Notes: generated by a model from the sequence alone, not told the origin. Positions 33,659 to 54,586 are shown, counted from the first letter of the stretch. The stretch is 64,000 nt of DNA from Deltaproteobacteria bacterium (GCA_017302835.1 JAFLCC010000004.1:124001-188000); one strand, 5' to 3'. Numbers and translations are program-made.

Positions 33659-36600
33659 TCAGTTCGAACCAACGTAATACTCTCCAATGGCATCTAATCC
33701 ATTTTGTTTATAGACAAAATAAAAAGCTTCTTTTGAAGAACTTGTCCATTCCAACGTTTTTCCTCTGGTGCTACAACCCATAGAACTCGAAGGTAACATT
33801 AGCTCTGTAGCGGTACCAGAACCATTAGCTCCACTCACAACAAATTTGTAAAGTTTAGCGTTGCTAGCACAATAATAAAATACGGTTTTATTATCTCCAG
33901 TCTTTTTAAAATTATAATTAAAAATACTATGCGGAAGGGCCGCAGCTATGGAATTGACCCGACTGCCAATTATGACATTATCACCAGCTCCTACAACACT
34001 TTGCCTGACAAAATCTACCTTGAGAATGGAGTTCGAACCTCTCCAGCTCATAAAAAGAGAATCTTCCCCAGGTATGAATCGATGAGGTATAGTTGTCGAA
34101 TGCCAGCTTGGAAAATTATTATCACCGGTTAGAATAGTGCCACCGACATTTGAGATTCTTTCAGTCACGCCACTATATCCAGCACAGTCTCCATCTTTTC
34201 CCATGACATGTTGAACCAGGGAAGTAGACAAATTCGTAGAGGTGATAGGGTTCAAATCTGGAATGCTTGTTGGAAGTCGCAGGGCTTTCATATAGCACTG
34301 TTTATAAGACCCCAGTTGATTACCCTTTGAATCTGTGTTTGCATAACTCCAGTCATGGGTAGTCGCTAAAATAGTTTTATTTCCCGTCCTATAGTCAATA
34401 CCAAAGGCTGGTATCACCGCAGGGTATGCAGATGAGAAATAAGGAGATCTTGAGACCGTCGAGATATCACAGTTCATACCATTGTTATTATTGCAGGACG
34501 ATGTTGCATTTGATGATAAAAAAGTCTTTGAATTATTATAAGCCCCCAAAATCATTTGACCAAATCTATCTCCTGAAGCGTTTCGATAAAAACGTGCAAT
34601 TCCATTTCTGGGTCCACCTGAGGATTGCGAAAAAATATCCCCATTATCAGGATCGACAACAAAACCTGTGCTCCAATCCCAATATTGAATTTTATATACA
34701 GAGCCAGACATTTTCATATCCCCAGCTTTGGTACTTGAATTAAAGGAATTCCCAATGGCTGAATTTGAAGTTCCCCATGAGTAAAAACCCGTTTGACAGA
34801 CTAAATTCCCATCACCCGGATTTATATCACATTTTCCTTCACCTTCATTTCCCATAATGTGGCGGATTCTTTGTCCTGGTTCAATTTCCCTCATGGCATT
34901 TTCTCTGGTATCAAAAACAATGATCTTTTGGTTTCCACTGGCTCCCCAAACTCCAAAATGTTCTATCATATTAAATCTAGCGGCAAAGGGACTTCCCTCA
35001 TTGCCAAATTTTCTAGACTGCCCTAGTATCGTCCTGATCTTGTTATTGACAATGGCTCGAACTCGACCTCTATCATAAAAATAGGAAATATTGTCATCGG
35101 TTAAATAATAATCAAGTATATCCACATAGCAATCAGAAGCACGAGTTTCATCAAAACACTGCCCTCGACCATCTCTAAAGACTTTTTCCCATGTATTTAG
35201 GCTCGCATTATACCGAAGCACACCATAAGCATCTTGCATCACATGTAAGGCGCCTTTTCTGCTTTGTAAATGACTTGCATACCCCCATTTTCCAATAGGA
35301 TTAGGATAAATCGTATTGGATCCACGAGATTTTCCACTTCTTGGGTTAAAGGTGAGCCCCGAAGGAATGATGGATTTATTATCTGCTAAAGGGACTCCCC
35401 CTCTAACCGCGATGGACTCGATATAGCTATTTGAAGGATTGAATAAAAGACCTGGCACACTTCGTAAATTGGTTTCACTCAAATTAAAGTATGGGTCTTG
35501 TTTAGAATTGTAAGCGCCGACGCCGCAAAGTCTTATTGGATAAATTCGATTCACTAAATTACCCTTTAAATCTTTGTTTTTAAAAACGGTAATATAAGGA
35601 GCCTTCCCAACTTCAGACTGTACCTTCTTATCAAACAAAGGAGCCGATGAAAAATAAATATCCCCATTTGGTAATGGCCACATGAAAGTACTATAAGCAT
35701 CTGTATTTAAAAAATCATAATATAAAGAAGGAATTCCCTTTGTGTTGGAGGTTGAAAAACAACCTTCACTTGTTAAATATTTAAACTGCCCATCGGCGTT
35801 CTTATCAAACCATCCAACCTTATCCGTACCAGAAACCAAACCACTATCTTTAAATCTCTCCAACCCAGGTTTGACTCCAACAAGGGTTGAAATCTTTCCA
35901 TCTTTCTCGACTCGACGGATTCTGTTTTTTTCCAAAATTAAAAGTCTATCTTTATAATCCAATGCAATTCTTAAGGGCACAGTTTGCGCTTCACTGATAT
36001 CCTGATCCTCACCGGGTTGAACATTTAACGATGGATTTCCTTTTTTAATATATACTTTGCTCTCGCCATCAGACGGATCAACAGAAAGAATTCCAAACTT
36101 GTCATCCCTGATGTAAACACGTCCCCAAGAGGTGACCACAATAGATCCAGGATTTGTTCTTTCGGTACCACCACCACCAGCGTATGAAAAAATAGCACTC
36201 TCTCCACTATTTCCAAGACTGTTATCCGTATTGCCTGCCACATTTCTAAACACTCCACTGTTCATAGGTGGGGTCGCTACGGAATTCACTAATCCAACAT
36301 CATTGACAGCACGAACCCTCACACGAAAGTAGCCTCCCACAGGCAGATTGGCTCCGTTCCAAATATAACACCCTGAATACTTTTGATCATCTCCATCTGC
36401 AAAACAATTCCCATTTTGAACATTTATAATATTATCAGTGGTAACCGGTAAAAACGTTTCTTCGTCGATAGTATACTCTAAGACTATCCCTTTGGTTTCT
36501 TTAAGCTGACCTTTTCCATTTGGTAAGATTTTCCATTTTATAAAAACGCTTGAACCAGAAATAACACTCAGCTCTTCCCTTGATGGAGGGATCGACGGGC

Positions 36601-37558
36601 TCTTCGTATTTGCCGCAATCACTTCTCTGATTTCAGGGGGTTTCACAATCACTAAATTGATTGAAGTTTTATCTTTATTTTGAAGACCAGTACCATTTTC
36701 AATAACAGAAATATTTCCCGCCGAATCCTTTACCCAAACTCTTATTTCATGAGAATAAGGAACAAAACCAATAAAAATAGGGGCTTTGGTGACTTTTAAA
36801 TTTTTTGAGGGCTCGATATCGACATTTGCAAAAATCTTCCAACATTCAGCATCCTCGGTAGGAGCCACTGAAGAATCCACTTTAATACAGTATTCAGTTA
36901 CTGGACTGAAAGAATCCGAAGCTTCAAAAGACACGCCCATATAACTTCGATTTACTTCAATTTTAGTAAAACCCTGACCAAGATTTTGAGAAGTCTGATC
37001 ATTAACAGATAAAGAATTTGCTAAAATGACTGGTGGCGAATTATCTACTGTAAAGTTGCCATCAGTCTCCTTGGTGTATCTGGTTCCAAAAGCATTTGTC
37101 GTTGTTAGTTTTATCTTGTAGGTATTAGATTCCCAACTTAATAAATCGCTGACTTCCCAATCATACTCCATGAGGCTCGCCCCCATGCTCGGAATCGAAT
37201 CGGCGACAACTTCCCACGTCGCCCCATTCGTTCGACTAAACTCTATTTTCGTTGAATAAAGTCCTTCATCTTTTGCATCAACGGGTTCAAGGTACCATTT
37301 AATCTTGTGCGTTTTCCCACCCTTAACGTACTCTCCACCCAAAAATGATTTCATATTTAAACCAGGAACGTTTATTTCAGGATCAATAGGATTATTCAAA
37401 CCAGGATCCCCCGTCACTGGTACTGATGGCATTAGTGAAAAAAGTTTCTCTGGGTCCCCGTCTTGGACCCGACTTGAGCAGGACATAAGTAATAGTAAAA
37501 CACAGCTGCCTACGATTTTGTGTAACTTACAAGTTACCCTTTGATTAATGAAACTCAT
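33659..37558 (-). CDS. Large lipoprotein with Ig-like region and NHL-like propeller
   Basis: This is a 1299-residue exported lipoprotein with lipobox LLLMSC. Residues about 60-330 hold two beta-sandwich-like segments (GGKTHKIKWYLEP..., FTVDNSPPVILA...). The remainder has propeller-like units such as SIVVTSWGRVYIRD, RIALDYKDRLLILEKNRIRRVEKDGKISTLVG and GFVVDPDNGDIFS. The N-terminal 830 residues align in pattern with the upstream 753-residue protein (same order of KWYL/KYRT, IFIGF/VFLGF, WVKDSAGNIS/WIKDQSGNVS), so they are paralogues. It is the last gene of the minus-strand lipoprotein operon. Its ATG overlaps the previous stop (TAATG). Function is probably binding at the surface. Confidence 0.8.
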   Translation of the reverse strand: MSFINQRVTCKLHKIVGSCVLLLLMSCSSRVQDGDPEKLFSLMPSVPVTGDPGLNNPIDPEINVPGLNMKSFLGGEYVKGGKTHKIKWYLEPVDAKDEGLYSTKIEFSRTNGATWEVVADSIPSMGASLMEYDWEVSDLLSWESNTYKIKLTTTNAFGTRYTKETDGNFTVDNSPPVILANSLSVNDQTSQNLGQGFTKIEVNRSYMGVSFEASDSFSPVTEYCIKVDSSVAPTEDAECWKIFANVDIEPSKNLKVTKAPIFIGFVPYSHEIRVWVKDSAGNISVIENGTGLQNKDKTSINLVIVKPPEIREVIAANTKSPSIPPSREELSVISGSSVFIKWKILPNGKGQLKETKGIVLEYTIDEETFLPVTTDNIINVQNGNCFADGDDQKYSGCYIWNGANLPVGGYFRVRVRAVNDVGLVNSVATPPMNSGVFRNVAGNTDNSLGNSGESAIFSYAGGGGTERTNPGSIVVTSWGRVYIRDDKFGILSVDPSDGESKVYIKKGNPSLNVQPGEDQDISEAQTVPLRIALDYKDRLLILEKNRIRRVEKDGKISTLVGVKPGLERFKDSGLVSGTDKVGWFDKNADGQFKYLTSEGCFSTSNTKGIPSLYYDFLNTDAYSTFMWPLPNGDIYFSSAPLFDKKVQSEVGKAPYITVFKNKDLKGNLVNRIYPIRLCGVGAYNSKQDPYFNLSETNLRSVPGLLFNPSNSYIESIAVRGGVPLADNKSIIPSGLTFNPRSGKSRGSNTIYPNPIGKWGYASHLQSRKGALHVMQDAYGVLRYNASLNTWEKVFRDGRGQCFDETRASDCYVDILDYYLTDDNISYFYDRGRVRAIVNNKIRTILGQSRKFGNEGSPFAARFNMIEHFGVWGASGNQKIIVFDTRENAMREIEPGQRIRHIMGNEGEGKCDINPGDGNLVCQTGFYSWGTSNSAIGNSFNSSTKAGDMKMSGSVYKIQYWDWSTGFVVDPDNGDIFSQSSGGPRNGIARFYRNASGDRFGQMILGAYNNSKTFLSSNATSSCNNNNGMNCDISTVSRSPYFSSAYPAVIPAFGIDYRTGNKTILATTHDWSYANTDSKGNQLGSYKQCYMKALRLPTSIPDLNPITSTNLSTSLVQHVMGKDGDCAGYSGVTERISNVGGTILTGDNNFPSWHSTTIPHRFIPGEDSLFMSWRGSNSILKVDFVRQSVVGAGDNVIIGSRVNSIAAALPHSIFNYNFKKTGDNKTVFYYCASNAKLYKFVVSGANGSGTATELMLPSSSMGCSTRGKTLEWTSSSKEAFYFVYKQNGLDAIGEYYVGSN

Positions 37559-39819
37559 TATTCACCTGCCTTAAACGACAAGATAGATTTTACTTTTCCA
37601 TCATCATCAATAAAACGAAGTCTGTTTTGATCTACAAAAAAGACTCTTCCCCACTCCGTTACAAAAAAATCTTTAATACGAACTTGGCAATTTCCTGAAG
37701 GCGTATCATTGGCACAGTAGCTGGCACCTGCGCCAAAATCAGAAAGAAGTGAGAGCCAACTCGATCCCGCTTCATTACTTGAAATTTTACTTAAAGTTCC
37801 CTGAAGAGCGTTCATCATAAAAATTTGCCCTGAACGATGAGAAGAGAAAATGACATTTCCCCAATGCCAAGGAGTAAAAGATTGGATCTGCTCTAGAAAC
37901 TGTCCCTTGCCATCAAAGACAAGGCTCACCAAATCATTGCAAGTTTTAGATGCGCCAACACCGGTTGGAGCGCAAGCTCTTAAATATATTTTTTTAATCT
38001 CGCTAGTTTGAAAATCAAAAACAGCAGTAGAAACTCCATAGACCTCTAAATCTTTTAACGAGTCCCCATTTTCGGTAGTTAATTCTTCACCTTTACTGTT
38101 GACCGTTTTCATTGTCAGGGTGCTGATTCTTAGGCTTTCAGACCGATTTGGATTATAAAAACGAAGACTAAAAACATTCCCACTGGCAGGTTTTAATTGT
38201 TTCACCGGATCTTCACTAGAGAACATCAAGGACCCGTCTGGCAAAGAAGAAAAACTTCCAAACCATCGCAAGTTATCAGAATAGGTAATTTTTAAATCCG
38301 TAGCGGATTTATCATCAGAAGTTATTTGACTTCCGCCACCAATGAGATCGTCAAAGTGAGGACTAGCTGTTGATAAATTGGTTACTTTTGAAATAAGGAC
38401 GTCTCCAGTTTGGGTTTTATCCATGACCCATAAATCCTCATTTGAATCCAAAGCTATACGAAGTGGATCATAAACCCGAGCTGTTGCCGTTCCCCCCGTC
38501 AGATGATTTCCTTGAGGGATTAATACCGAATAAGTGCCATTATTTAAATCAAAACGAAGAATTCCTTTTGGTGTGCCATTATGTTTTATATAGGCCACTC
38601 CAGCGGAGGTAACAACCAAAGATCCAGGATCCCCCATATTAAGAGCACTGTCTCCACTGGCGTATTTGGCAATGGTTCCAGAGGCCGAAGCATTTGAATT
38701 TAATGTTAAATCAGCATCAAAAGTAGGAGTCAGGGTGTGAGTATCAGGGTTCCAAAAAGAAGACCCGGAATGAGAAACTGAGCTTTGCGAAAGAACCACT
38801 TTGTCTTTACCTGCTAAACCATAGGTTGTCACGTCATCAACCGTGTTCGATGTCATTGTGGATACATTGCCTGATTGATCTTTTATCCACAAATAATAAT
38901 TAAGACTTGCTTTGGCGGTAAATCCTAAAAAAACAGGAATGGATACAATTGTCATATCTTGTTGAGAATTTACAGAATACACAGGGTTAAAAGGCATTGT
39001 TGAAACCCAACAGGAATCATTCTGGTCGGGAGTTGTGGTTTCTAATTTAAGACATAAGTGACTCACTCTATTTAAATTATCACTGGCTGCATATAATTCT
39101 AACTCAATAAAACCATTTAGATTTGATTGCTTAATTCCAAAACCTTTTTTAGGTGAGGGTTGAGACGTGGCCAAACTTGGAGAAATGGAATCGATAGTAA
39201 AGTAACCGCTAGACTGTACTGTTCCAGATTGATTATCCAGTCGCTTACTCGTAACTCGAATTTTAAAATCAAGACCATTTAATAAAATAGGATTTCCGGA
39301 AGCATCCAACAAACAGTTTTTACCTTCAACATGAGGACAAATATTCCATTTGTAGGAAACAATTTCGTTATCATTTGACACTATTTTGTCGGCTATCAAC
39401 TTCCAATCAGCATCTGATTCTCTTTTAAATTCCAACTTGCTGTAAACAGATTTAAATTTGGCATAAGAAATATGAGTTCTATATTTAACATAGTATGAAT
39501 TTCCACCTTTTAAAAACTCATTATTATTTAAATTCAATAAATCAACAGAAATAACTCCATTTACATTAGGGTCGCCAAACTTATCGCCTCCCTCCGAAGT
39601 ACAGGTTCTGCCGATGGAAGGATCTTCATAGCAATTTCCACCCGTTCCGCTTCCTCCGCTTCCAGGGACTGTTGAATTTGAATCAGAATTTTTTGGATTT
39701 TGAGTGGAGCTTCCATCTGAAAGTAAACCATCTTTAGGATCGCTAACACGAGAATCACAAGCACCAAAGAATAAGACTCCTGATAACAAGAAAAAAACAT
39801 AAAAATAGAGTTTCTTCAT
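37558..39819 (-). CDS. Lipoprotein paralogous to the next gene, shortened at the C-terminus
   Basis: This is a 753-residue lipoprotein (start ATG 39819 with GGAGG 5 nt upstream; frame opening at 39837 is less likely). The lipobox is LFFGAC. It shares the order of domains with the 1299-residue neighbour: beta-sandwiches, then VVTSAGVAYIKHNGTPKGILRFD, LRIALDSNEDLWVMDK and a last unit TEWGRVFFVDQNRLRFIDDDGKVKSILSFKAGE. It ends exactly where the neighbour continues with GQSRKFGNEG, so it lacks the last ~470 residues. Either it is naturally short or was truncated. The stop TAA shares a base with the next ATG. Confidence 0.8.
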   Translation of the reverse strand: MKKLYFYVFFLLSGVLFFGACDSRVSDPKDGLLSDGSSTQNPKNSDSNSTVPGSGGSGTGGNCYEDPSIGRTCTSEGGDKFGDPNVNGVISVDLLNLNNNEFLKGGNSYYVKYRTHISYAKFKSVYSKLEFKRESDADWKLIADKIVSNDNEIVSYKWNICPHVEGKNCLLDASGNPILLNGLDFKIRVTSKRLDNQSGTVQSSGYFTIDSISPSLATSQPSPKKGFGIKQSNLNGFIELELYAASDNLNRVSHLCLKLETTTPDQNDSCWVSTMPFNPVYSVNSQQDMTIVSIPVFLGFTAKASLNYYLWIKDQSGNVSTMTSNTVDDVTTYGLAGKDKVVLSQSSVSHSGSSFWNPDTHTLTPTFDADLTLNSNASASGTIAKYASGDSALNMGDPGSLVVTSAGVAYIKHNGTPKGILRFDLNNGTYSVLIPQGNHLTGGTATARVYDPLRIALDSNEDLWVMDKTQTGDVLISKVTNLSTASPHFDDLIGGGSQITSDDKSATDLKITYSDNLRWFGSFSSLPDGSLMFSSEDPVKQLKPASGNVFSLRFYNPNRSESLRISTLTMKTVNSKGEELTTENGDSLKDLEVYGVSTAVFDFQTSEIKKIYLRACAPTGVGASKTCNDLVSLVFDGKGQFLEQIQSFTPWHWGNVIFSSHRSGQIFMMNALQGTLSKISSNEAGSSWLSLLSDFGAGASYCANDTPSGNCQVRIKDFFVTEWGRVFFVDQNRLRFIDDDGKVKSILSFKAGE

Positions 39820-39821
39820 TT

Positions 39822-41849
39822 TTACCTCCCCACGCAACGAACACTCAGTTCAGAGGTTTTTGGTTGAATCCTTCGATATCCATTTCCAATATTAATAACC
39901 CATGCCTTATCCACTTCCGCCGAAGAACTCGTTGCCGTCCATTCCTCACTTCCGACAGAAACATCGGGTAAAACGAATCTGAGTCCATTGTGATTTGCTA
40001 ACATGTAGTCGTACATTGTAGGCAAACGCCAAAACACCCTGCCATTATTTTTTTGAGCTACTGGCAAGGTGGCAAGCCCAGCCTTACCAGATTGATTTGT
40101 CCCCGTACTCATAAATCCATATGTGGCCGAGGCATCATCAGCGATAAATCCATTAAAACCTTCAATACAAGCGCTGATAGGGTGCTTATTTAAATTATTC
40201 TGGTATCCGTCAGAAGAATCACATATATTTGCAGGGTCATCTTCACGAAATTTCTCATCAATGAGATTGCTATTGCTATTTCCAGAGGCCTTACACCAAG
40301 TAAGACCGATAGTTCCTGATACCTTGGAGCTCCATAATAATCCTGTAGAATTGTCTTTCCAAACTTCATAGTTAACTCCAGGAGAAATATTTTTTCGAGA
40401 AATTAACGTCCACTTTCCCTGTCCTGCATTTCCTTTTAAAATCCCATCCCAAGTGGTGTTTACACTCCCAAGAACAGTCCGACAGTTGGCTTCTTTAGCA
40501 TCCATAGTTCCGTTATTTTGACCGCAACTGGTATCACCCCATGGGGTCACATTATCATTTAGTTTTCGATTAACTTTATTGCTATTAGAAATTTCTTCAG
40601 AGTCAGTAGCAATTTTAGGAATGAACCGATAACTTGTAGGAGCTGCCGACAACGGATTATAAGAGGCCTCAACCTCACTAAAGGGAGGCGATGGTGGCCG
40701 AGGTCCTGGTGGTTCTTGATAGACCATCCTCTTTATTCCGGGATCCCGATGGGCTCCAGAACCCCAGTAAAAACCTTCCGTAACAAAAGTTCCCATGACA
40801 CCATATATTTGCTCACCGGCCTTGATGTTACTTGCTACCAAATAACCAGTTGATTGATCTTTGGTGGAAAAATTAAAAAAACAATTTCCAGAATTATCAT
40901 CATCACAATTTTTAGCTCTTCCCCCGTAAGGCTGATCATAAACCCAATTTCCAATTTTACTTGGAAAACAGGCTACCTGGTTAATAGCATCATCAACCGC
41001 AGGATCTTCATTACAAGTTTTTACTCTGTAAACTATTTTATAGGTACTCGGATTGGCTGTATCTACTTTGACCCAACAGGCTGAAGTGAGAACCTGCCCA
41101 ACGACACAATCAGCAGCTCTTCCACCATAGGCCGTGGTATGTAAATAATCTCCTTCTTTAACTTCGCAGTAGTTTTTCACAATAGAATTGACATCACATT
41201 TTTTAAAATCAACTTGATTTGGATAAAAATAATTATTACCACTTTGATACCAACAAGGCCCGGAAAAACTAGTCCCTGTTTCCGCTGTAGTTACCGGTGT
41301 GCAAACTTGGGATCTCCCTCCGTAGGGAGTCTGATAAGCGTTTTTATTATTTGTTTTTAAAATACAGGTAGAAGGATTTATCATTCCATTGACTAAATTT
41401 GATGAAACACACTGAGCTAACGATTGATTATCCAGATCTCCGCTCACTCCAAAAATGGATTTACCTTTGGCAATATTTGTTGCTACTAAATCTAAATCAT
41501 TCAAAGTGACCGTTTTATTTTCATAAAAACCTACGGGCACAGTGACGCTTTTACTTCCTGTTGACCCAATAAGATTAGTTCCTATCTGAGTATGACCATT
41601 AAATTCAGAATCATAGGTATAACTTCCTTTTTGATTCACAATACACTCACCTGCGGCACTTGCACCCTCTATACATTTTTGAGAAGTGGTAGGAACAGGC
41701 ACAACAACGGTGTTGTTATTTGAAGGTAAAACGTTGGCATCTCCGTTAACAGCGGCAGTTTCTTTTTTTTCAATTTGGTCTTTCTTTTCACAAGAAATTT
41801 GTAGAAGAAAGAAAATGGTTATTCCAATATATTTGTACGACCTATACAT
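39822..41849 (-). CDS. Lipoprotein with YGGR/CW repeats and a C-terminal DUF1566 domain
   Basis: The protein has 675 residues with lipobox LLQISC. Three repeats of the form Y-GGR-x2-C ... CW (TPYGGRSQVC, TAYGGRAADC, QPYGGRAKNC) span roughly 170-330. The C-terminal ~220 residues form a DUF1566/Lcl C-type-lectin-like fold: EVWKDNSTGLLWSSK, WRLPTMYDYMLANHNG, EEWTATSSS, RCVGR. Such lipoproteins are displayed on the surface and may bind glycans. It is a clear paralogue of the upstream gene. GGGGG lies 4 nt before the ATG. It overlaps its upstream neighbour by 31 nt and is followed 2 nt later by the next lipoprotein. Confidence 0.83.
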   Translation of the reverse strand: MYRSYKYIGITIFFLLQISCEKKDQIEKKETAAVNGDANVLPSNNNTVVVPVPTTSQKCIEGASAAGECIVNQKGSYTYDSEFNGHTQIGTNLIGSTGSKSVTVPVGFYENKTVTLNDLDLVATNIAKGKSIFGVSGDLDNQSLAQCVSSNLVNGMINPSTCILKTNNKNAYQTPYGGRSQVCTPVTTAETGTSFSGPCWYQSGNNYFYPNQVDFKKCDVNSIVKNYCEVKEGDYLHTTAYGGRAADCVVGQVLTSACWVKVDTANPSTYKIVYRVKTCNEDPAVDDAINQVACFPSKIGNWVYDQPYGGRAKNCDDDNSGNCFFNFSTKDQSTGYLVASNIKAGEQIYGVMGTFVTEGFYWGSGAHRDPGIKRMVYQEPPGPRPPSPPFSEVEASYNPLSAAPTSYRFIPKIATDSEEISNSNKVNRKLNDNVTPWGDTSCGQNNGTMDAKEANCRTVLGSVNTTWDGILKGNAGQGKWTLISRKNISPGVNYEVWKDNSTGLLWSSKVSGTIGLTWCKASGNSNSNLIDEKFREDDPANICDSSDGYQNNLNKHPISACIEGFNGFIADDASATYGFMSTGTNQSGKAGLATLPVAQKNNGRVFWRLPTMYDYMLANHNGLRFVLPDVSVGSEEWTATSSSAEVDKAWVINIGNGYRRIQPKTSELSVRCVGR

Positions 41850-43855
41850 CGAACCCCCGCTGTCATCCCCCGGTTGATAAACTTATGGTTTCCGAGTTTA
41901 GTTGAAAAGGCCCATGCCTCTGCTTTATTTGAATTATTTATTGTGGCCGTCCATTCAAATAAACTTGAATTACCAGAAAGCGCTTTTCCCATGTCAGGTA
42001 AAACAAATCGAATCCCATTATACTCGGCCACTTCATAATCATAAACACTTGGTAACCGCCAACCTACAGCTGGTGTTGATAACGAAGAAAGACCACTTTT
42101 ACCTTCTTCGGATGGATCCAATTCAGTAAACCCTGTCCCTTCATAGCAGGCACTTATCGCATTTCCAGAGGTGTTTTGATAAAGTGAATTATCGCAATAA
42201 TCGTTTGGATCGTTTTCTTGGGCAATATTTCCAGTTATATTATTATTACCTGAAGCCTTACACCAATTCGCATTCGTTGAGATAAGAGAACTCCACAATA
42301 AGCCAGTATTTTCATCTAACCAAACTTCACGGCCTCTATTGGCAAGACTTTGGCCACGGCGAGAAACCAGTTTCCATTTAGATTGCCCCGCATTTCCACG
42401 ATTGGTACCATCCCAAACAGCATTAATACCAAAAACGTTGGCACAGTCAGAAATTCGAGAACGCGTGGTCCAGGAGTTTCCACTGGCATCTTTGGCTCCA
42501 ACACCGCAAGAAGCGTTTCCCCAACCGGATCGATCGACGCCAGAAATTTCGGTAGCATAGGTTCCATCATTATCCAATCTAGCCATAGGAACTTCGCGAT
42601 ACCCATCTGATAACCCTGCATCTTTATCGCTAATTCCTGAATAAACAAAGGTTTCGTCAGAAATAGCCAGAGGGTAGGCGTAAGAATCTCGATGGGCACC
42701 GGACTTCCAAGAACCTTCGCCTCTAAATTTGCCTTTGATACCAAAAATAGTGACACCAGCCTTAATAACACTAGGAATTAAATTGGGCTCCAAAACATTT
42801 TTTTCAACGGTCAACCAACAAAAACCATTCTTATTTTTTAAACAAAGCGCTTCTCTACCTCCATACTTTTGAAGGTATACATATCCTGCCGACTTACTAA
42901 CAATGCTAGAAGGATCTTCAGAATTATTGCTATTGATTCGAACTCGACAATCTGAATTTGTTTGTGAATTCCAGGAACACCAGTTACTCAAAAGATTCGA
43001 AGTAACAAAACCTCTACTTACTGTATTTATTTGATCGGCCCAACACGAAGTAGAATTTTTGCTTTCATCTGTTTTACACAAATTTGACCTTCCTCCATAG
43101 GGTGAATCATAAACAAAAAGACTTGGTCTGGCCCAACACATTCCTCCTACAGGAATAGGTGTTAGTGAATTTTCCATAGAAGTAGCACACTGAGGAGAAA
43201 CCGTTTTTTGGACTGGAGAAGTATAAACTTTTGATGCTGAATCAACCCAACATCCGTTCTGAGGAATGGTGCTATTGTTTAATGAGCACAGATTAAATCG
43301 CCCACCAAATAGAACATCATATATATACAAATCTTTTGAAAGGGCACACCCGCCTACCCCAAAAGTGATAGGATAATTTCCTATATCACAAGCATCCGAT
43401 CGCGAAATATCTAGGGTGCCAACAACACCAAATAAATTAACATCTTTCTTAATATTCCCAGCAACTAAATTCGCATCTGAAAAATTAAGATGCGTCCCTC
43501 CAGGAAACCATCCCACTGGAATTAAATCTGATGATTTATCGCGAATCTCGATATCAGTTAAACGATCAGGCCCCCTCCCACCATTTTCAGCTGAATAAAA
43601 ATACATGTTCGTGGAAAGTTTGCAAATTTCACTATTAAAACCGTTCACTATACAATTAATTATTTCTTTTCCTGCCGGAATATTCACAGTGCCGTCTTGA
43701 TTCTCACCTATTTCCGTTGTCTGACCTGAATTTGCTTCAGGTAAAGAATCTGAAGTACTATTGTTCGGTGAGCAAGCACTCATTATGAAAATCAAGCCGA
43801 TCAAAAAGCTGGATAAAGAAAACTGAATTAACTTTTCAAATAAAGTAATTTTCAT
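41819..43855 (-). CDS. Lipoprotein with YGGR/CW repeats and a C-terminal DUF1566 domain
   Basis: This is a 678-residue paralogue of the next gene (start ATG 43855 with AGGGGG upstream, preferred over a frame opening at 43882). The lipobox is IMSAC. Repeats ENGGRGPDRLTD, LFGGRFNLC, SPYGGRSNLC and KYGGREALC lie at about 70-350, each with a following CW. The DUF1566-like end has EVWLDENTGLLWSSL, VGWRLPSVYDYEVAEYNG and FEWTATINN, then VRCIGRTNILE. This is the first gene of the lipoprotein operon; a ~300-bp gap separates it from the envelope-protein genes behind it. Similar repeats in the two paralogues indicate recent duplication. A function in adhesion or carbohydrate binding is likely but unproven. 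Confidence 0.83.
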   Translation of the reverse strand: MKITLFEKLIQFSLSSFLIGLIFIMSACSPNNSTSDSLPEANSGQTTEIGENQDGTVNIPAGKEIINCIVNGFNSEICKLSTNMYFYSAENGGRGPDRLTDIEIRDKSSDLIPVGWFPGGTHLNFSDANLVAGNIKKDVNLFGVVGTLDISRSDACDIGNYPITFGVGGCALSKDLYIYDVLFGGRFNLCSLNNSTIPQNGCWVDSASKVYTSPVQKTVSPQCATSMENSLTPIPVGGMCWARPSLFVYDSPYGGRSNLCKTDESKNSTSCWADQINTVSRGFVTSNLLSNWCSWNSQTNSDCRVRINSNNSEDPSSIVSKSAGYVYLQKYGGREALCLKNKNGFCWLTVEKNVLEPNLIPSVIKAGVTIFGIKGKFRGEGSWKSGAHRDSYAYPLAISDETFVYSGISDKDAGLSDGYREVPMARLDNDGTYATEISGVDRSGWGNASCGVGAKDASGNSWTTRSRISDCANVFGINAVWDGTNRGNAGQSKWKLVSRRGQSLANRGREVWLDENTGLLWSSLISTNANWCKASGNNNITGNIAQENDPNDYCDNSLYQNTSGNAISACYEGTGFTELDPSEEGKSGLSSLSTPAVGWRLPSVYDYEVAEYNGIRFVLPDMGKALSGNSSLFEWTATINNSNKAEAWAFSTKLGNHKFINRGMTAGVRCIGRTNILE

Positions 43856-44111
43856 TCTTCTTCCCCCTCTAAAAATTTGCAATCTCGTCTCAATTTACCT
43901 TAAATTGTCTCTTTAAGTTGCTGTCCCTCAACTATGATATCAATTTTTATTAACACTTTCTACAACTCTGAAATTATTGAAAAAAGAATGTTCAAAGGTC
44001 TGTATCAAAATGATTTTTCAAAGATCAATACGCCTCAGTTCCTGGCTATTTCCATTTCTACTTTACATAGGCTAGGTCAAGATAGGAAGGAATCCAATTG
44101 AAACGTATCAA

Positions 44112-44179: not shown

Positions 44180-45607
44180 TTAAAATTGAAGATTAAACAT
44201 CAACTGATCTAAATCAGCTTTTCGAGAAAGACCCGAAGAATTGCGAACATTTAAAGATTGTTTTTCGTAGTAGATTCCTAACTCCCATGGTTTAATTCCA
44301 ATAAAAGTATAGGAATAACCAAGCTTCAACATAGTATGACCTTTAATAACATTGGACCCGAGGGATTGCGATCCTACGGAAAAATCGACTTTATGAAACT
44401 CGTTAATATTATATGAAAAATGAAGACCTAAACCCATTTGCCCCACCTGAATCGCGGTGTTACTAAAAGGATGAGAAAAACTTCGATAGGAAGTTAATAG
44501 ATTTGCAAGAATATTAAATTTTTTCTGATACAACAAATATCCAAAATTAGTATTAAAATCAAAATACTCTAGCTTTTCTTCACTTACCCCATATGGCAAT
44601 GTGGTTGAAGACCCTACGCTGACTTGATATTTATTAGCCAAGAGTTTACTCCGAGCGTAAACCTGAGCTGCAAAAGAAGAACTACTTTTCTTGGTATTTC
44701 CATAATCCGCATTTTCAATCTGTAAAGATAGCGAGTCCATTCCCAGTGCGAAGTTGACATCAAAAGTCGAAGATATAAATGCCGCCAGTTTTAAAATATA
44801 AGATTTTTCAGAGGCAGATAGGGTTTTATTTTTATCAGTCAATGAATCTATTTTTTCTTTTAAGTTTACAATTTCTGTTTGAAGTCCCGATATAAATTTC
44901 TGATTTTTATCATATTCTGCATTCGCAGCCAAAATCTCAAACTTATAATCTCCCTTATGTTTAATAAGAATACTGCCAATAACTCTATCAGCATTATTTG
45001 TATTTGGAAGCTCATACAAACGCCATCGTTCACCTTTTCCTTTGTAATCAAAAAAAGAAGATGAAACAATTTCAGCATCCTCTGGCACTGAAATAACAAT
45101 AGCTTTAGGTTTCTGTGGTCTTTCGATGCAATTTACTCCTACAGCAAAATTCGGCGAATTTTCCTTTTCGACCTTTAATTCAGGAAATGCGGATCCACAT
45201 TGATGGTAGAAAATCTGAGTTTTATCAAATTTATGAGTCAATTTAATTCTTAACTTAACACCCATACTATCTTTGATTTCAATTTCATTTTCTAAAAAAG
45301 ACGAAGTGAATTTTATATTTCTTCCCGACCAAGAAATTCTTCCGGTTTTAGCTGTAACTTCTTCAAGAGTTAATCTTGCAGGAACTTCCAATTCTACATA
45401 AAATGAAAATGCATTCAAGGGAACTCCTATATCTTTTGAAACCTCCTGAAAAAGTTCTTTTTCATTAATAACCTTAAAATCTTTCATGAGTTCTACGTCC
45501 AAGGGGTTTTTATTCTTTATTTTATAAAGTTCAATTTTAGCAAAAGAACTCAGCGGTGCATAACTAAAAAAAAATAGAATGACAAACCAAAGACTTTTCT
45601 TACACAT
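44180..45607 (-). CDS. Envelope protein with a coiled coil and a C-terminal beta-barrel-like domain
   Basis: This is a 475-residue exported protein starting at ATG 45607 (GGGGAGAT 6 nt upstream), which begins the signal peptide CKKSLWFVILFFFSYAPLSSFA; the longer frame to 45778 overlaps the previous gene and is unlikely. After the signal comes a beta-rich region with a Cys pair (YHQCGSAF and VGVNCIERP). A coiled coil follows (residues about 235-265, NLKEKIDSLTDKNKTLSASEKS), then about 200 residues of alternating amphipathic strands ending in MFNLQF with a terminal Phe. That pattern fits an outer-membrane beta-barrel. Its place behind the MotA/MotB-like genes suggests it is part of the same envelope complex. 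Confidence 0.7.
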   Translation of the reverse strand: MCKKSLWFVILFFFSYAPLSSFAKIELYKIKNKNPLDVELMKDFKVINEKELFQEVSKDIGVPLNAFSFYVELEVPARLTLEEVTAKTGRISWSGRNIKFTSSFLENEIEIKDSMGVKLRIKLTHKFDKTQIFYHQCGSAFPELKVEKENSPNFAVGVNCIERPQKPKAIVISVPEDAEIVSSSFFDYKGKGERWRLYELPNTNNADRVIGSILIKHKGDYKFEILAANAEYDKNQKFISGLQTEIVNLKEKIDSLTDKNKTLSASEKSYILKLAAFISSTFDVNFALGMDSLSLQIENADYGNTKKSSSSFAAQVYARSKLLANKYQVSVGSSTTLPYGVSEEKLEYFDFNTNFGYLLYQKKFNILANLLTSYRSFSHPFSNTAIQVGQMGLGLHFSYNINEFHKVDFSVGSQSLGSNVIKGHTMLKLGYSYTFIGIKPWELGIYYEKQSLNVRNSSGLSRKADLDQLMFNLQF

Positions 45608-45626
45608 TTTATCTCCCCATCTTAAT

Positions 45627-46427
45627 TTAATAAGAATAACCAAGGCCGACACTGAGTTGCGAATTTCCCAAAATATACTTTCCGGAATTGTTATTGAAAG
45701 AATAATCAAATTGATGATACTGACCACCCCAATACAAGGTAGAAGACCATTTTTTTGAAAAAACTCTAACAATTCCAATCACCCCATCAAGAGATACCCC
45801 CGAATGAACTCTTAATTCGCCATGGCTTCGAACTGGTACCTGCAATCTATTTCTCCATATAAATGTTAAATATTTAGTCGCAAAGATATCAAAATGAAAA
45901 CCAGCAGATAGGGTGTCAACACCTTCATTATTTATAGTGTAACCAGATTCATTTTGAACCATAAAAGGCATCGAATGAATTTGATATGAAAAAATAATTC
46001 TTGGTTTCCATTGATACTTTAAAAAAACAAAGTCCTCAGGCATCAAGTACTCACCACCAATATTTGTGTAAAACCACTTAACATGATTATTATTTAATAC
46101 CAGTGAGTTTGAATTCATGTTGGAAGTAGGATGATTTTGATACTCCATTTTATATCTAAAATCTTTATTTATCTTGATGGTCGCTTCAACTAAAAAAGAG
46201 GGTCCGCCAAAGTTTCTAAAATCTACAGGCTCTATATTTTGAGGTGGTTTTTGCTGAAACACTAAATAATTAATACCTGAACCAAAATAAATACAGTAAT
46301 CACAATCTGTACCTAAAAAATCTGTATTCACTTTTTTACTGGAGGTGTTGCTGACTGGTGATTTAGGAAGGACTTCAGCAGAGGAAAAACAAAACACCAT
46401 TAAGAAAAAGGAAATTAATTTAGTCAC
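45627..46427 (-). CDS. Predicted outer-membrane beta-barrel protein
   Basis: This 266-residue protein has a signal peptide (MTKLISFFLMVFCFSSA) and a periodic pattern of amphipathic strands (VEATIKINKDFRYKMEYQ, FVFLKYQWKPRIIFSYQI, FDIFATKYLTFIWRNRLQ, STLYWGGQYHQFDYS). It ends in SVGLGYSY, with aromatic residues as in OMP C-termini. The family is not recognised. It lies 49 nt after the MotB-like gene and 19 nt before the next envelope gene on the same strand, so the four genes read as one operon. Possible role: anchor or outer-membrane pore for the motor-like pair. Confidence 0.7.
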   Translation of the reverse strand: MTKLISFFLMVFCFSSAEVLPKSPVSNTSSKKVNTDFLGTDCDYCIYFGSGINYLVFQQKPPQNIEPVDFRNFGGPSFLVEATIKINKDFRYKMEYQNHPTSNMNSNSLVLNNNHVKWFYTNIGGEYLMPEDFVFLKYQWKPRIIFSYQIHSMPFMVQNESGYTINNEGVDTLSAGFHFDIFATKYLTFIWRNRLQVPVRSHGELRVHSGVSLDGVIGIVRVFSKKWSSTLYWGGQYHQFDYSFNNNSGKYILGNSQLSVGLGYSY

Positions 46428-46476
46428 ATTTATATACTACAGCACTAGACTAAAAATGGTCAATTGGTAATTTATT

Positions 46477-47409
46477 TTACAAAAGCACTTCCATTTTACC
46501 TAGCTCACTCACTTTGACTTTATAAATAACTGTTTGGTTTTTACCAAGACTCAATTTAGCTTCAGGGAAAATAATTTTTTCTAGACCAATGATAATAGTT
46601 GTATTAACGACAGCATCCTGTTCATTTCCATACTGATTATAAAGCGTCACCTTTACTTCGTATTCGCCTGGAATAACTTGATTTGATGTCCAAATCTCAG
46701 CTCCAGGACCATATCTTGAGTCTAGAACAAATTCCCCAGACATCCCTTCATACTTTCGATTTTTAAAGTTAAAGAGTTTCCCTAATGGATTTTTTACTGT
46801 TAAATCAATGTCGTGCTTTTCTGTCTCCCACTTTGAAAAAATGAGCATATAGTTTTTAGTTTTCAATTCTTCATTTGTTTTTTTAAGCCTAAACAAATCT
46901 TGCTCTGACTTTTTAAGCTCTTTATTCATTTCTTCTAACTTCTGACTCAGTTCTTTCATTCTTTCAATCGGTTTGCCGTCTTCACCAATGACATTATTTT
47001 TTGCTTCTAAATCATTAATTATTTGTTTTAACTTTTTGTTTTCCTCTTCTGTTTTATCAAAAAAAGCCACCTTGCTTTTTAAAACTTTTATTTCATCTAC
47101 TGAATTGTTTTTTTCTTTTTCCATATCACTTGTTTTTATTTTTAAAATATTTAGCTCTTTCTCGATTTTATCGAGTTCTTCTGAAGTTATTTTTCTATTT
47201 TGACTCACTTTTTTAGTCTCGCCATTTAAAGAACTTGAAATTGCCAACAGTTTTTCAGTTGAATTCCCGGTATTTTCTTTCGCTATTGAATACATTAAAA
47301 CAAAAAAACCAAATAGCAATGTCATCAAATCAGAATAACTAACTAGCCATTTTTCATCGTGATGCATCTGGTGGTTTTTTTTTCTGTGACCTGAATAGTC
47401 AAATGGCAT
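46477..47409 (-). CDS. MotB/ExbD-like membrane protein with coiled coil and DUF2135-like periplasmic domain
   Basis: This is a 310-residue protein. The N-terminal EKWLVSYSDLMTLLFGFFVLMYS is the MotB plug-and-helix signature with the ion-carrying Asp27 (SYSD). It is followed by a highly charged coiled coil at about 70-180 (EELDKIEKELNILKIKTS...). The C-terminal ~120 residues do not contain the OmpA-like peptidoglycan-binding domain of MotB or ZorB. They resemble DUF2135/YfaP-type beta-sandwiches instead: HDIDLTVKNPLGKLF, then SRYGPGAEIWTSN, IPGEYEVKVTLYNQYG. The 2-nt spacing after the MotA-like gene marks an operon. Function: probably a proton- or sodium-driven device whose stator arm ends in an unusual domain. 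Confidence 0.85.
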   Translation of the reverse strand: MPFDYSGHRKKNHQMHHDEKWLVSYSDLMTLLFGFFVLMYSIAKENTGNSTEKLLAISSSLNGETKKVSQNRKITSEELDKIEKELNILKIKTSDMEKEKNNSVDEIKVLKSKVAFFDKTEEENKKLKQIINDLEAKNNVIGEDGKPIERMKELSQKLEEMNKELKKSEQDLFRLKKTNEELKTKNYMLIFSKWETEKHDIDLTVKNPLGKLFNFKNRKYEGMSGEFVLDSRYGPGAEIWTSNQVIPGEYEVKVTLYNQYGNEQDAVVNTTIIIGLEKIIFPEAKLSLGKNQTVIYKVKVSELGKMEVLL

Positions 47410-47411
47410 AT

Positions 47412-48449
47412 CTATTTCTTTCTATTTGCTACTTTTTGGAAGTCATAAACTTCCAACGCAACTGTTTTATCGTTATCACCTATATGTTCATCTGGGGTTT
47501 CATCTTTGCCGTCTGAAGCATCCAATAGAACTATCTCTTTGATAACATCTTTAAACATTATTCTTTCCTTCAGGGGAAATTTACTTAACATGAAGTCATA
47601 GATATGAATTCTGGAGTATTTTTCTTTTATCAAATAAATAACATCAATTACAAATTCCCTCACTTTTTGTTCTTCTTCCGCTTGCCGAAGTGCCAAATCA
47701 CTGAGTGGTAGAATGACAAAATTTGCACCTGCAATCCCCCAAAAAGTAGCAACTAATGCCGTGGCCATGGCCTTTCCAATTTGCTCCGTTCCACCCGCAG
47801 ATCCCACTTGCTGCATCATTTCGATCATCCCCGTGGAGGCTCCTAAAAGACCTAATGCTGGAGGAAACTTTGAAATTGCATTCAAGGTTTTTGCATCATC
47901 AAAATATCTATCTGTAATAGAATCTTTTAAATTATGCAGGAGAGCCATCAATTGTTTTGTAGAAAGTTTTTTTTTAGAAAGAGCCACAAAGCACTCTTTG
48001 GTAAATGGATGACTAAATTCAAAATTTGACATATTAGATTGTTGAAAATAGGACTCAGTGGCTTCAACAAGCTCGATGGCCATTTGAAACTGGGTTCTAT
48101 TTCTCTTTCTTCCCGATAGATAAACTCCAAAAATAATAAAATCAGCAAGATCGGCAAGCTTTTTAAAAGGATAGGATACCAACGTGATCCCAACCGTTCC
48201 AAAAATAACTATCATGAGGGCATGAAAATTTAAATATAAAGCAGGATTGACGGCTGGCTCTATAACACCAAAATACAAAACATAAAAAATGATCAACGAG
48301 CCTAAAAAAACGCTCGATCGGTTTGGCAAAACCATTTGAAATCCTCCCAGGATCTTGAGGGTCCATTCTGAAACTTTCCTCAGAAAACTCTCGGTGATTT
48401 TACAGCAATTATTAAGTCCAGAACTAAAATTAGCTCCGTTCTGGGCCAT
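47412..48449 (-). CDS. MotA/TolQ/ExbB-family proton-channel-like protein
   Basis: This 345-residue inner-membrane protein has the MotA order. TM1-2 are at about 47-95 (LGSLIIFYVLYFGV, ALMIVIFGTVGITLVSYPF). A cytoplasmic loop of about 100 residues follows, then TM3-4 with the conserved KFPPALGLLGASTGMIEMM (194-212) and GKAMATALVATFWGIAGANFVILPL (225-249). The Pro and Gly/Ala pattern of the flagellar MotA/TolQ family is retained. A further charged cytoplasmic tail of about 90 residues is present. No flagellar gene lies near, so this is not the flagellar stator; the best comparison is with ExbB/D-, TolQ/R-, AglR/S- or Zorya-like pairs. It heads the minus-strand envelope operon. Confidence 0.88.
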   Translation of the reverse strand: MAQNGANFSSGLNNCCKITESFLRKVSEWTLKILGGFQMVLPNRSSVFLGSLIIFYVLYFGVIEPAVNPALYLNFHALMIVIFGTVGITLVSYPFKKLADLADFIIFGVYLSGRKRNRTQFQMAIELVEATESYFQQSNMSNFEFSHPFTKECFVALSKKKLSTKQLMALLHNLKDSITDRYFDDAKTLNAISKFPPALGLLGASTGMIEMMQQVGSAGGTEQIGKAMATALVATFWGIAGANFVILPLSDLALRQAEEEQKVREFVIDVIYLIKEKYSRIHIYDFMLSKFPLKERIMFKDVIKEIVLLDASDGKDETPDEHIGDNDKTVALEVYDFQKVANRKK

Positions 48450-48587: not shown

Positions 48588-48644
48588 CAACTTAACCTTC
48601 CGATAGTCCTGATAGGATTAATTTTGATTGATCCAGGAGGAACA

Positions 48645-51600
48645 ATGAGAACGTTAATGAATAGTTTCCGCCATTTAGTGTTGGTTACCTACTTGCTTTC
48701 ACTGGCATCTTGTGTTTTACCAAAAAACGAAAATCTGAGCCAAACCATCTTACAAGAGATGAACCAGGATACAGGAGCTTCAAAAGAATTTGCTGGATTG
48801 GCTTCAGCGCAAACAATTTCCTCCAATAAAGTGCAATTAAGTTGGGTGCCATCAACAAATCCTGATGTTATTGGTTATGCCGTTTATGATACCAGCTTAG
48901 CCTTTAATCCAAAATTAATTAAAACGGTAAAAGCACCAGCAGAGGGAGTGGCCATCACCAATTTATCTCCCCAGACTTTCTATTCATTTAGGGTGAATGC
49001 ATTTAAAAAAGACCAAGTTAATGATCCAAATAAAGTCGATATTGGAGCCATACCTTATGGAGGTATTTCTTCCGTAGAAGTTCAGAGTTCGACAACGGCA
49101 GTTTTTAAATATGCTGATGGAAGTAATGCAGATAAGATTTTAGTTTACTGTAAAGTTGGATTGCTTGCTATTGAAGAAACCCTAATTGCTACAATTACAA
49201 ATACGACAAATTCGCAAAGTTTGATTTCTGATTTAATACCAGGAGAAACCTATAAATGCAGAGTTGTCTTAGATATTGGTGGGTTTCAAGATAACAATAC
49301 AACTACAGTTACTTTTATTCCATTAGGTGAGGCTTCACAACTTGTTTTTTCCTCACAACCAACAAGTGGAAGCGCTGGCGTGGCTATTCCAGGACAACCC
49401 GTTGTTTCTATTCAAGACAGTAGCGGTAATGTGATTGTTGCAGGACCTGATTCTACGGCTCAGGTAACCCTGACCATTGCACCTCCTGGAGCTGGAGTGG
49501 TTGTTGGTACATCTACAGTTACAGCAGTTAAGGGAGTGGCCACATTTACGGGCCTAAGTTTCCAAGAGGCGGGATTAAAGTCTTTAAGGGCGACAAAATC
49601 AGACACTTCAAATCAAACAAATGGTTCAGCGCCCTTAACAGTTGATTCGGATAGTTTTACAATTTCTCCAGGACCAGTAGACGCAACAAAATCCTCCATC
49701 AGTATTTCCCCTGCCGTACCTCCTGCAACTCCATTGGTAGCGGATGGCAATGCCTCCTATTCCGTCATCATCACTTTAAAGGACCAATATAATAATCCGA
49801 TTTCAGGTATTAAACCCACCTTTGCATCTTCAATTTCAGGAGACAATCTAACTCAACCTTCGGCATTTACAGACTCAACGGGAAGCTCTTCAGGATCAAT
49901 AAGTTCAACCATCGCAGACACTTCGTCACCTTTTAGATCTTTAACGATTTCATCTCCGGCGGGTTTAGGAACCCTTTCGGTTTTGGCACCTTTTGTTCCT
50001 GGAGTCGCTACAAAGCTTGGCTATATTGTTCAACCCGTAAATTCGCCAGGCGGAGCCTTAGGGATGGCCCCCATTCAAATAGCTATCATGGATGCTAACA
50101 GTAACGTGGTTAATACGGGTGCGGCTTCGACATCTTCAATTACCGTATCCATTGCCTCGAATGTTAACGGCGCGGTGCTTTCAGGAACGACAACTGTTAC
50201 TGCAGTTAATGGAATTGCTGCGTTTAGCAATTTAGGAATTGACAAGACTGCAGTAGGATATAAGCTGCTAGCCAGTTCTGGAAGCTATATTCCCTCCTAT
50301 AGCAATTCGTTCAATATTACTTCGGGAACTCCGCAAAAAATAACAGTGACCTCAGGATCAAATTCTGTGGTTTCAAATGTTTGTAGCGGAGTTATTACGG
50401 TCCAGCTTAAAGACAACGGAAATAATCCAGCAAATGCCATTCAAAACACCCCCATTTCAATTTCAGGTTTAGGTAGTGGCTCTTTATATACAAGCAGTAC
50501 TTGCAGCGGTTCACCCATTTCAGCAACTCTAACGTTTGCAGCAGCCACAAATACGAAAACTTTGTATCTAAAAGACTTATCCAGCGAAACCTTAAATTTA
50601 GTCTTTAGTGATACCTCCAGTGTTTTAACCACTGGTACCTTTACAATGAATGTATTGCCGAACAAGATTAGTATCGCAGCCAACATGCCCTCACCTCCAG
50701 CTGCTTCAGGCACACCGATGTCAGTTGTGGCAGGAGCTTGTTCACCCGCAATTGTTATCACTCCAAGGGGCGAGAATGGCACTCCCGGACCTTTACCAGC
50801 CATTACGAGTGTTTCAATCACAGGGTTAATCGGTACAAGTGCGCAAATATACTCAGACTCAAGTTGTACGCAGCTACTGACTCCCTCTAATGTCTCTTTG
50901 CCAATCACTGCAGGAACAGGGACTTACCCAATTAATATTTATTTAAAGGATCCAAAGTCTGAGGCCTTGAATCTCAATGTAACAGATAACGCAGCCGTTA
51001 TGACTTCGACTTCTTCAAATCAACCAATTTCTATTTTACCCTCTAAAATTATTTTCAGCGGCCCCACGACTGTTGTTGCCGGAAGATGCTCAACGGCTTA
51101 CACCGTGTCACTCAAAGACGAGCAAAATAATCTTGTAAATGCAGATACAAATAAAACAATAAATATCAATGGCCTTAGCGGGACAACAACTGGAGCTTTT
51201 TACAATACAAACAATTGCAGCGGTTCGCCATTGAACACACAACTTGTTATTCCCCAAGGGAGTCCATCGGTAATGGTCTATTTCTCAGACACAACAGCTG
51301 AAAGTTTAACTGTTCACCTGTCAGATCCCAATGGTCTAATGAGCAATTCAGCATCGATATCCATAGGAATTTCCCCTGCGGCATTTCAAATCACCGGGCC
51401 AACACCGGCAAACTCTAAAACAACGGTTTGTGCAGGTCCATTTACAGTCAACACCTTAGATGGAGCGACTGTACCTAACATCACGGCAGCTATTAATTCG
51501 ATTGTAGCCAATCTAGCCCAATCAGGTTACGCCGCCGGATTTATTGATGCTGGGAAATTTTACAGTGATAGTCATTGCGGCACCCAAATAAGTAGTTTGA

Positions 51601-54560: not shown

Positions 54561-54586
54561 CTTTGAGTTTTTTAGAGGTGGTTTTC

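Follow-up and report, generated by a model that had tools for sequence, protein, structure and literature searches.

A MotA/MotB-like gene pair in a 64,000-nucleotide stretch of DNA from a Deltaproteobacteria bacterium (GCA_017302835.1, JAFLCC010000004.1:124001-188000), here called the window, probably encodes a non-flagellar ion-driven motor of 5:2 stoichiometry, with a shaft that would cross the periplasm and pass force to the outer membrane. The motor, which some predatory-type relatives of Bdellovibrio carry, is inherited with its own barrel protein and with large lipoproteins that come in sets. This points to a machine, not described before, that would relay force generated at the inner membrane to the surface of the cell. 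As judged from sequence comparison, the combination of an arm-bearing motor, a barrel and lipoproteins is well supported as a gene system. A sequence-only reading of this DNA had placed the pair in an operon with two envelope proteins, and all four of its open reading frames (ORFs) are confirmed on the minus strand, where MotA comes first and is followed by MotB, then a small barrel and lastly a coiled-coil/barrel protein (Table 1). The run of lipoprotein genes that it placed next is also there, on the same strand beyond a gap of approximately 325 bp, and in Bdellovibrio qaytius (L042) the gap is replaced by an 8-bp overlap of MotB with the first lipoprotein gene. Scans for promoters and terminators in the locus yielded no more than expected by chance.

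The A subunit matches the Pfam family MotA_ExbB. In a tree of 49 A subunits, 17 MotAs of the arm-bearing type form a single clade with 100/100 support, which is placed on the MotA/PomA side and apart from both ExbB/TolQ and the flagellar MotA subclades of the same genomes. The profile of this clade matches exclusively MotA/PomA structures in the Protein Data Bank (PDB) at E values up to 0.01. Thus, the protein lies inside no Tol or flagellar subclade, a placement that the sequence-only reading had named as fatal to its proposal. Whether the clade is nested in the flagellar branch as a whole or is sister to it is not separated by an approximately unbiased (AU) test (p-AU 0.47). The equivalents of the pore residues P173, T209 and P222 are conserved in the arm-MotAs. 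There are 15 MotA/ExbB-family genes in the window's genome, and three of these are of the arm type (in the window, on contig C5 as L039 and on contig C10 as L040).

The window MotB matches MotB_plug, and its Asp lies within WLVSYSDLMTLL. Residues W, SY, D and MTLLFG of the plug are invariant across 10 relatives. Pfam finds no OmpA domain in 10 members of the arm-MotB family, including the window protein, whereas OmpA is present in all six flagellar-type MotBs tested from the same and related genomes. The Asp-bearing helix is therefore kept without an OmpA domain, as first proposed, and the C-terminal domain is not an OmpA variant. The long coiled coil also stands, as a predicted shaft: the linker between the transmembrane helix and the arm measures 115-355 amino acids across the arm-MotBs (median approximately 167), versus 60-73 in four measurable OmpA-type MotBs of relatives. 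If helical, the shaft would be 17-53 nm long, with approximately 25 nm for the median linker, which would be enough to span the periplasm.

The arm consists of the C-terminal 129 residues. There are 13 invariant residues in an alignment of 21 proteins (W13, HD.D, D49, GPG.E.W, G67, Y69 and N81), and the AlphaFold model is an all-beta domain with a pLDDT of 94.8. Comparison of the arm with DUF2135 proteins by hhalign gives a probability of 98% and an E value of 1.7e-13 over 107 columns, and the arm profile also detects stand-alone secreted proteins, encoded in other families of the phylum, that Pfam calls DUF2135. Pfam DUF2135 (PF09906) matches none of the arm-MotB members directly at E values up to 1, and thus the link is drawn through profiles. 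By this evidence the MotB tip is a remote relative of DUF2135 (YfaP), and the resemblance seen in the initial reading holds in that form. A search of the PDB with the arm fold returned generic beta-sandwiches only, with nothing better than 1e-3.

One of the free-standing DUF2135 relatives has DUF2300 and DUF1175 genes for neighbours, an arrangement that matches the yfa operon of E. coli (which comprises yfaS, yfaT and yfaA as well as yfaQ and yfaP). Six loci (L108-L113) hold yfa-like operons in which the DUF2135 gene comes last, with the DUF1175 and DUF2300 genes confirmed in L109, and their DUF2135 proteins are likely the source family of the arm domain. The two settings share a domain family by profile-profile comparison, but in the yfa operon (yfaTSQP) the domain forms a free secreted protein beside DUF1175 and DUF2300 proteins, whereas here a motor subunit carries it as its tip. 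Separately, two proteins of 1041-1053 amino acids in a sister genus (L102:4346-7507 and L114:5596-8721) combine PEGA with a DUF2135-like domain, and one of them includes ZU5.

The most likely start codon of the ORF at 44180-45778 is the ATG at 45607, which gives a protein of 475 amino acids with an N-terminal signal peptide judged by eye. Its structure model (mean pLDDT 80, pTM 0.44) shows a pair of periplasmic beta domains and helices, and residues 282-474 form a barrel of 10 strands. The alignment of its family contains two invariant Cys residues and a GK(G) motif in the periplasmic part, together with the C-terminal barrel. The nearest solved barrels found with Foldseek are of the FadL, OpcA and OmpT/Pla kinds, and an outer-membrane location is predicted. 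Thus, one of the two envelope proteins that had been read beside the motor is its conserved partner. The other, of 266 amino acids, was rejected as such: it is a generic barrel whose weak relatives lie inside other large ORFs, and it is not syntenic. Elsewhere in the window's genome, two tandem genes of the partner's barrel family are located at the far end of the lipoprotein cluster on contig C10 (G000:C10:1111-3611).

Profile searches across 369 Bdellovibrionota genomes gave strong matches to the arm in 21 genomes and to the barrel in 21 genomes. Both occur together in 19 genomes where 1.2 would be expected (Fisher test, 1e-27, a p-value that is inflated by kinship), and these genomes span families f1, f2, f4, f10, f14 and f26. 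In most loci the barrel gene either adjoins MotB or lies at the distal end of the lipoprotein run. The gene set proposed by the sequence-only reading is therefore found in other genomes, with three of its four members syntenic or co-inherited over several families and the 266-amino-acid barrel left out. Named carriers of the arm are Bdellovibrionaceae, Pseudobdellovibrio and B. qaytius. A strict scan of genome contigs for the arm pattern gave matches in Bdellovibrionota only, with a pattern too narrow to prove restriction to this phylum.

Among the genomes screened, those of the large sister genus g6, which we take to be Bdellovibrio proper, lack the arm/barrel set. This weakens gliding as a general role, and the set is not the general gliding machinery of the genus Bdellovibrio. 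According to a 2026 review, that machinery is unidentified (PMC13104615).

The lipoprotein genes of the window have touching or overlapping ends, and lipoboxes are visible in most of them. A surface location is predicted for their products. There are two kinds of lipoprotein set. In the first, an Lcl-type tandem pair accompanies a protein of 1175-1299 amino acids in the window, L042 and L093, and the pair occurs alone in L106. The window's protein of 1299 amino acids is 28% identical to L042_1871 over 99% of its length. In the second, an S8 subtilase (920-1164 amino acids) accompanies a Cys-rich tandem pair in L040, L044, L097, L098, L103 and L105, and the Cys-rich pair is present in L104 too. 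Full-length matches to the sets are confined to genomes that carry the arm (6/6 for the Lcl-pair type and 8/8 for the subtilase/Cys-rich-pair type). Signal peptides alone align between the two kinds of set in profile comparisons, and thus no homology is claimed. Upstream of the motor pair on contig C10 of the window's genome there are gene fragments (L040:11762-12961), one of them 82% identical to part of the protein encoded at 33659-37558, and these look like a decayed recent copy.

These associations also fit a serious rival, albeit one that we regard as unlikely, in which the motor powers export or assembly. In this view the motor resembles a powered Slam: instead of moving the large Cys-rich lipoproteins after their display, it would drive them to flip or mature, either through the barrel or next to it. 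Consistent with this, the lipoprotein genes lie within the same gene run in several loci, complete cargo sets are found in arm genomes only, and the cargo is large and Cys-rich, with one set bringing its own subtilase. However, the modelled 10-strand barrel resembles closed barrels of the OpcA/OmpT class and would offer no pore for a folded protein, and the motor and barrel occur without large lipoproteins alongside in L043 and L046-L048. Flagellar, Tol/Ton and phage-defence roles are less likely than powered export.

In five loci (L050, L094, L098, L099 and L100), the arm is carried by a different B subunit with the motif SAIDLFAS, in motor pairs that are ExbB/TolR-like. The A subunits that are readable (L050, L099 and L100) group with ExbB/TolQ in the tree. 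The barrel family is adjacent to this second type of arm pair in L050, L098 and L100, and L098 also holds a subtilase and a Cys-rich pair. Thus, the arm is tied to the barrel independently of the motor, and the occurrence on two motor classes is the strongest evidence that the arm, barrel and lipoproteins may act as a functional module separate from flagella. Perhaps, and we offer this tentatively, the shaft, DUF2135 arm and barrel are an exchangeable module that can be mounted on a MotAB or an ExbB/TolR-like motor and that, in predatory bacteria, actuates surface lipoproteins in sets that can be swapped for one another, adhesin-like or protease-bearing. Such an ion-driven, trans-envelope machine would belong to a new class. 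A further unknown protein of approximately 400-430 amino acids beside the barrel is common to L050 and L100.

The grouping of these second-type A subunits with ExbB/TolQ brings to mind a Tol/Ton-like system for envelope maintenance or uptake, wherein the barrel is energised for lipid homoeostasis or import, and the general logic of an inner-membrane motor, a periplasmic arm and an outer-membrane partner is shared with such systems. Nevertheless, this function is very improbable, given that the window A subunit is of the MotA type and that TonB, TolA, Pal and a TonB-dependent receptor are all missing from the set. The patchy presence of the set (21/369) and its large, lineage-specific lipoproteins are unlike a housekeeping role, and the window's genome has many separate ExbB/TolQ-type genes.

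Another possibility is a specialised flagellar stator, in which the arm-MotAB pair acts on a polar flagellum, perhaps a sheathed one, and the barrel belongs to an outer-membrane disc or to the sheath. The window pair shares with the stators MotAB and PomAB a MotA-type A subunit, conserved pore residues and a MotB plug helix with its Asp, and its MotA belongs to the flagellar-type branch, from which the AU test does not separate it. FlhA is present in 21/21 arm genomes. No flagellar genes are near the pair in the window, as the sequence-only reading stated, but this part of the claim fails in B. qaytius, where flhF, flhG and a sigma factor gene lie just ahead of the set. We still consider a stator quite improbable. 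Arm-MotB has no OmpA peptidoglycan-binding domain, its linker is 2-5 times longer and ends in a DUF2135-like tip, and the motor is paired with a barrel and lipoproteins. The equivalents of the FliG-facing charges R90 and E98 of E. coli MotA are variable in the 17 arm-MotAs and mostly kept in flagellar MotAs, in a region that is poorly aligned. Moreover, the window's genome has other MotAB pairs with OmpA, flagellar genes are not near the other loci, and the second form runs on an ExbB/TolR motor without a flagellar counterpart. Bdellovibrio is a flagellated genus, and it is among the relatives that lack the set.

A non-flagellar motor that delivers force to the outer membrane might work as follows. 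A MotA5:MotB2 complex would convert ion flow into rotation or tilt of the shaft, where ion conduction is expected because of the conserved residues and the 5:2 assembly because of family membership. As the gene associations suggest, the arm would dock on the barrel protein's periplasmic domain. The barrel might then hand force to a surface lipoprotein complex composed of two tandem paralogues and a large third protein of the Lcl or subtilase type, and the output may be movement, deployment or assembly of these lipoproteins. The architecture of an envelope-spanning machine put forward in the sequence-only reading (motor, DUF2135-like arm, barrel and linked lipoproteins) passed all tests made. 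Its suggestion that surface lipoproteins are moved or displayed is consistent with the gene links, but gliding as one such output is weakened by the absence of the set from the genus Bdellovibrio.

Several observations weigh against this proposal. The barrel is undetectable in two arm genomes (G055 and G105), and the arm was not found in two barrel genomes (G100 and G104). Most relatives lack the set, whose function is therefore dispensable to the lineage. Because flhA, a flagellar export gene, accompanies every arm, flagellar presence is uninformative as a discriminator. The cut-offs for complete lipoprotein sets were picked after the E-value gap was seen, and the lipoproteins are assumed to be surface-exposed. 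Finally, 10-strand barrels are normally closed, which makes direct export through the partner barrel unlikely.

Other motors with a similar working logic differ from this one in motor branch and in periplasmic and outer-membrane parts. The GldLM (PorLM) motor of type IX secretion and Bacteroidota gliding is likewise an ion-driven 5:2 motor with a long periplasmic shaft, outer-membrane partners and surface proteins that are moved, and its partners include GldKN. However, the arm-MotA profile matches no GldL in the PDB at E values up to 0.01, the arm here resembles DUF2135 and a 10-strand barrel is the outer-membrane partner. The clusters showed no type IX genes. The AglRQS-Glt system of Myxococcus gliding also joins a motor to a trans-envelope complex and a surface adhesin, but the window motor is of the MotA type, whereas AglRS is grouped with the ExbB/TolQ-type proteins (PMC12505986). 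No Glt proteins were recognised in the clusters, although no search aimed at Glt was made.

Zorya ZorAB is likewise a MotAB-related motor outside flagella, and a Zorya-like role in phage defence would suit a MotAB-like motor whose operon also encodes unknown proteins. The plug gives weak matches to ZorB profiles. We rejected a Zorya identity and regard a defence role of this kind as exceedingly improbable: the window MotA has no ZorA match and no ZorA tail, neither a nuclease nor a helicase effector is present, and the OmpA domain of ZorB is missing from MotB.

The module has a fair chance of being a new system. No paper in the open-licence literature was found that brings MotA, MotB and DUF2135 together. 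A 2025 survey splits MotAB relatives into a flagellar type with an OmpA anchor ('FIT') and a generic ExbB/TolQ type ('GIT') (PMC12505986). The window MotA lies outside the ExbB/TolQ branch, whereas the A subunits of L050, L099 and L100 are on that side. A MotA-type motor that has no anchor and is apparently aimed at the outer membrane breaks this division, and the case illustrates how motors of the flagellar type can be put to other uses. Since the arm and barrel occur on two motor branches, delivery of force to the outer membrane can be argued to be modular. The set is also a testable candidate for powering surface proteins in relatives of Bdellovibrio, although it does not serve as the gliding motor in most of that genus.

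Table 1. Features of the motor locus and the adjoining lipoprotein genes, in window coordinates.
Feature	Coordinates	Strand	Evidence
MotA-type ion-channel subunit, 345 aa	47412..48449	minus	Pfam MotA_ExbB 1e-15, clade profile, tree
MotB-type subunit (plug helix, coiled coil, C-terminal arm), 310 aa	46477..47409	minus	MotB_plug 1.7e-15
MotB plug/transmembrane helix with ion-binding Asp, residues 8-60	47230..47388	minus	Pfam stretch
Predicted coiled-coil shaft, ~residues 66-185	46855..47214	minus	sequence
Arm, DUF2135-like beta-sandwich	46480..46866	minus	alignment, model, hhalign
Small predicted outer-membrane barrel, 266 aa, outside the conserved set	45627..46427	minus	weak relatives
Conserved predicted outer-membrane partner, 475 aa	44180..45607	minus	alignment, model, Foldseek, co-occurrence with arm
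Lcl-type lipoprotein 1, likely start ATG at 43855, lipobox MSAC	41819..43882	minus	lipobox; relatives
Lcl-type lipoprotein 2, tandem paralogue of lipoprotein 1	39822..41849	minus	Pfam Lcl_C 7.8e-8
759-aa lipoprotein, FGAC lipobox, paralogue of the 1299-aa protein gene	37558..39837	minus	lipobox, clustering
1299-aa large protein, likely lipobox LMSC	33659..37558	minus	relatives adjoin motor in L042, L093

Three huge proteins (1978, 1109 and >2060 amino acids) are encoded on the plus strand at 48624-64000 of the window; they are transcribed away from MotA and carry Big_1, fn3, NHL and FG-GAP repeats. A fibre-like protein with a Peptidase_S74 (endosialidase chaperone) domain is encoded at 30512-32341, and its relatives of 1564-1687 amino acids are found near motor genes in L093 and L096. 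In three genomes of the same genus (L046, L047 and L048), the motor, arm and barrel genes are preceded by mreB, two unknown genes and a histidine kinase gene.

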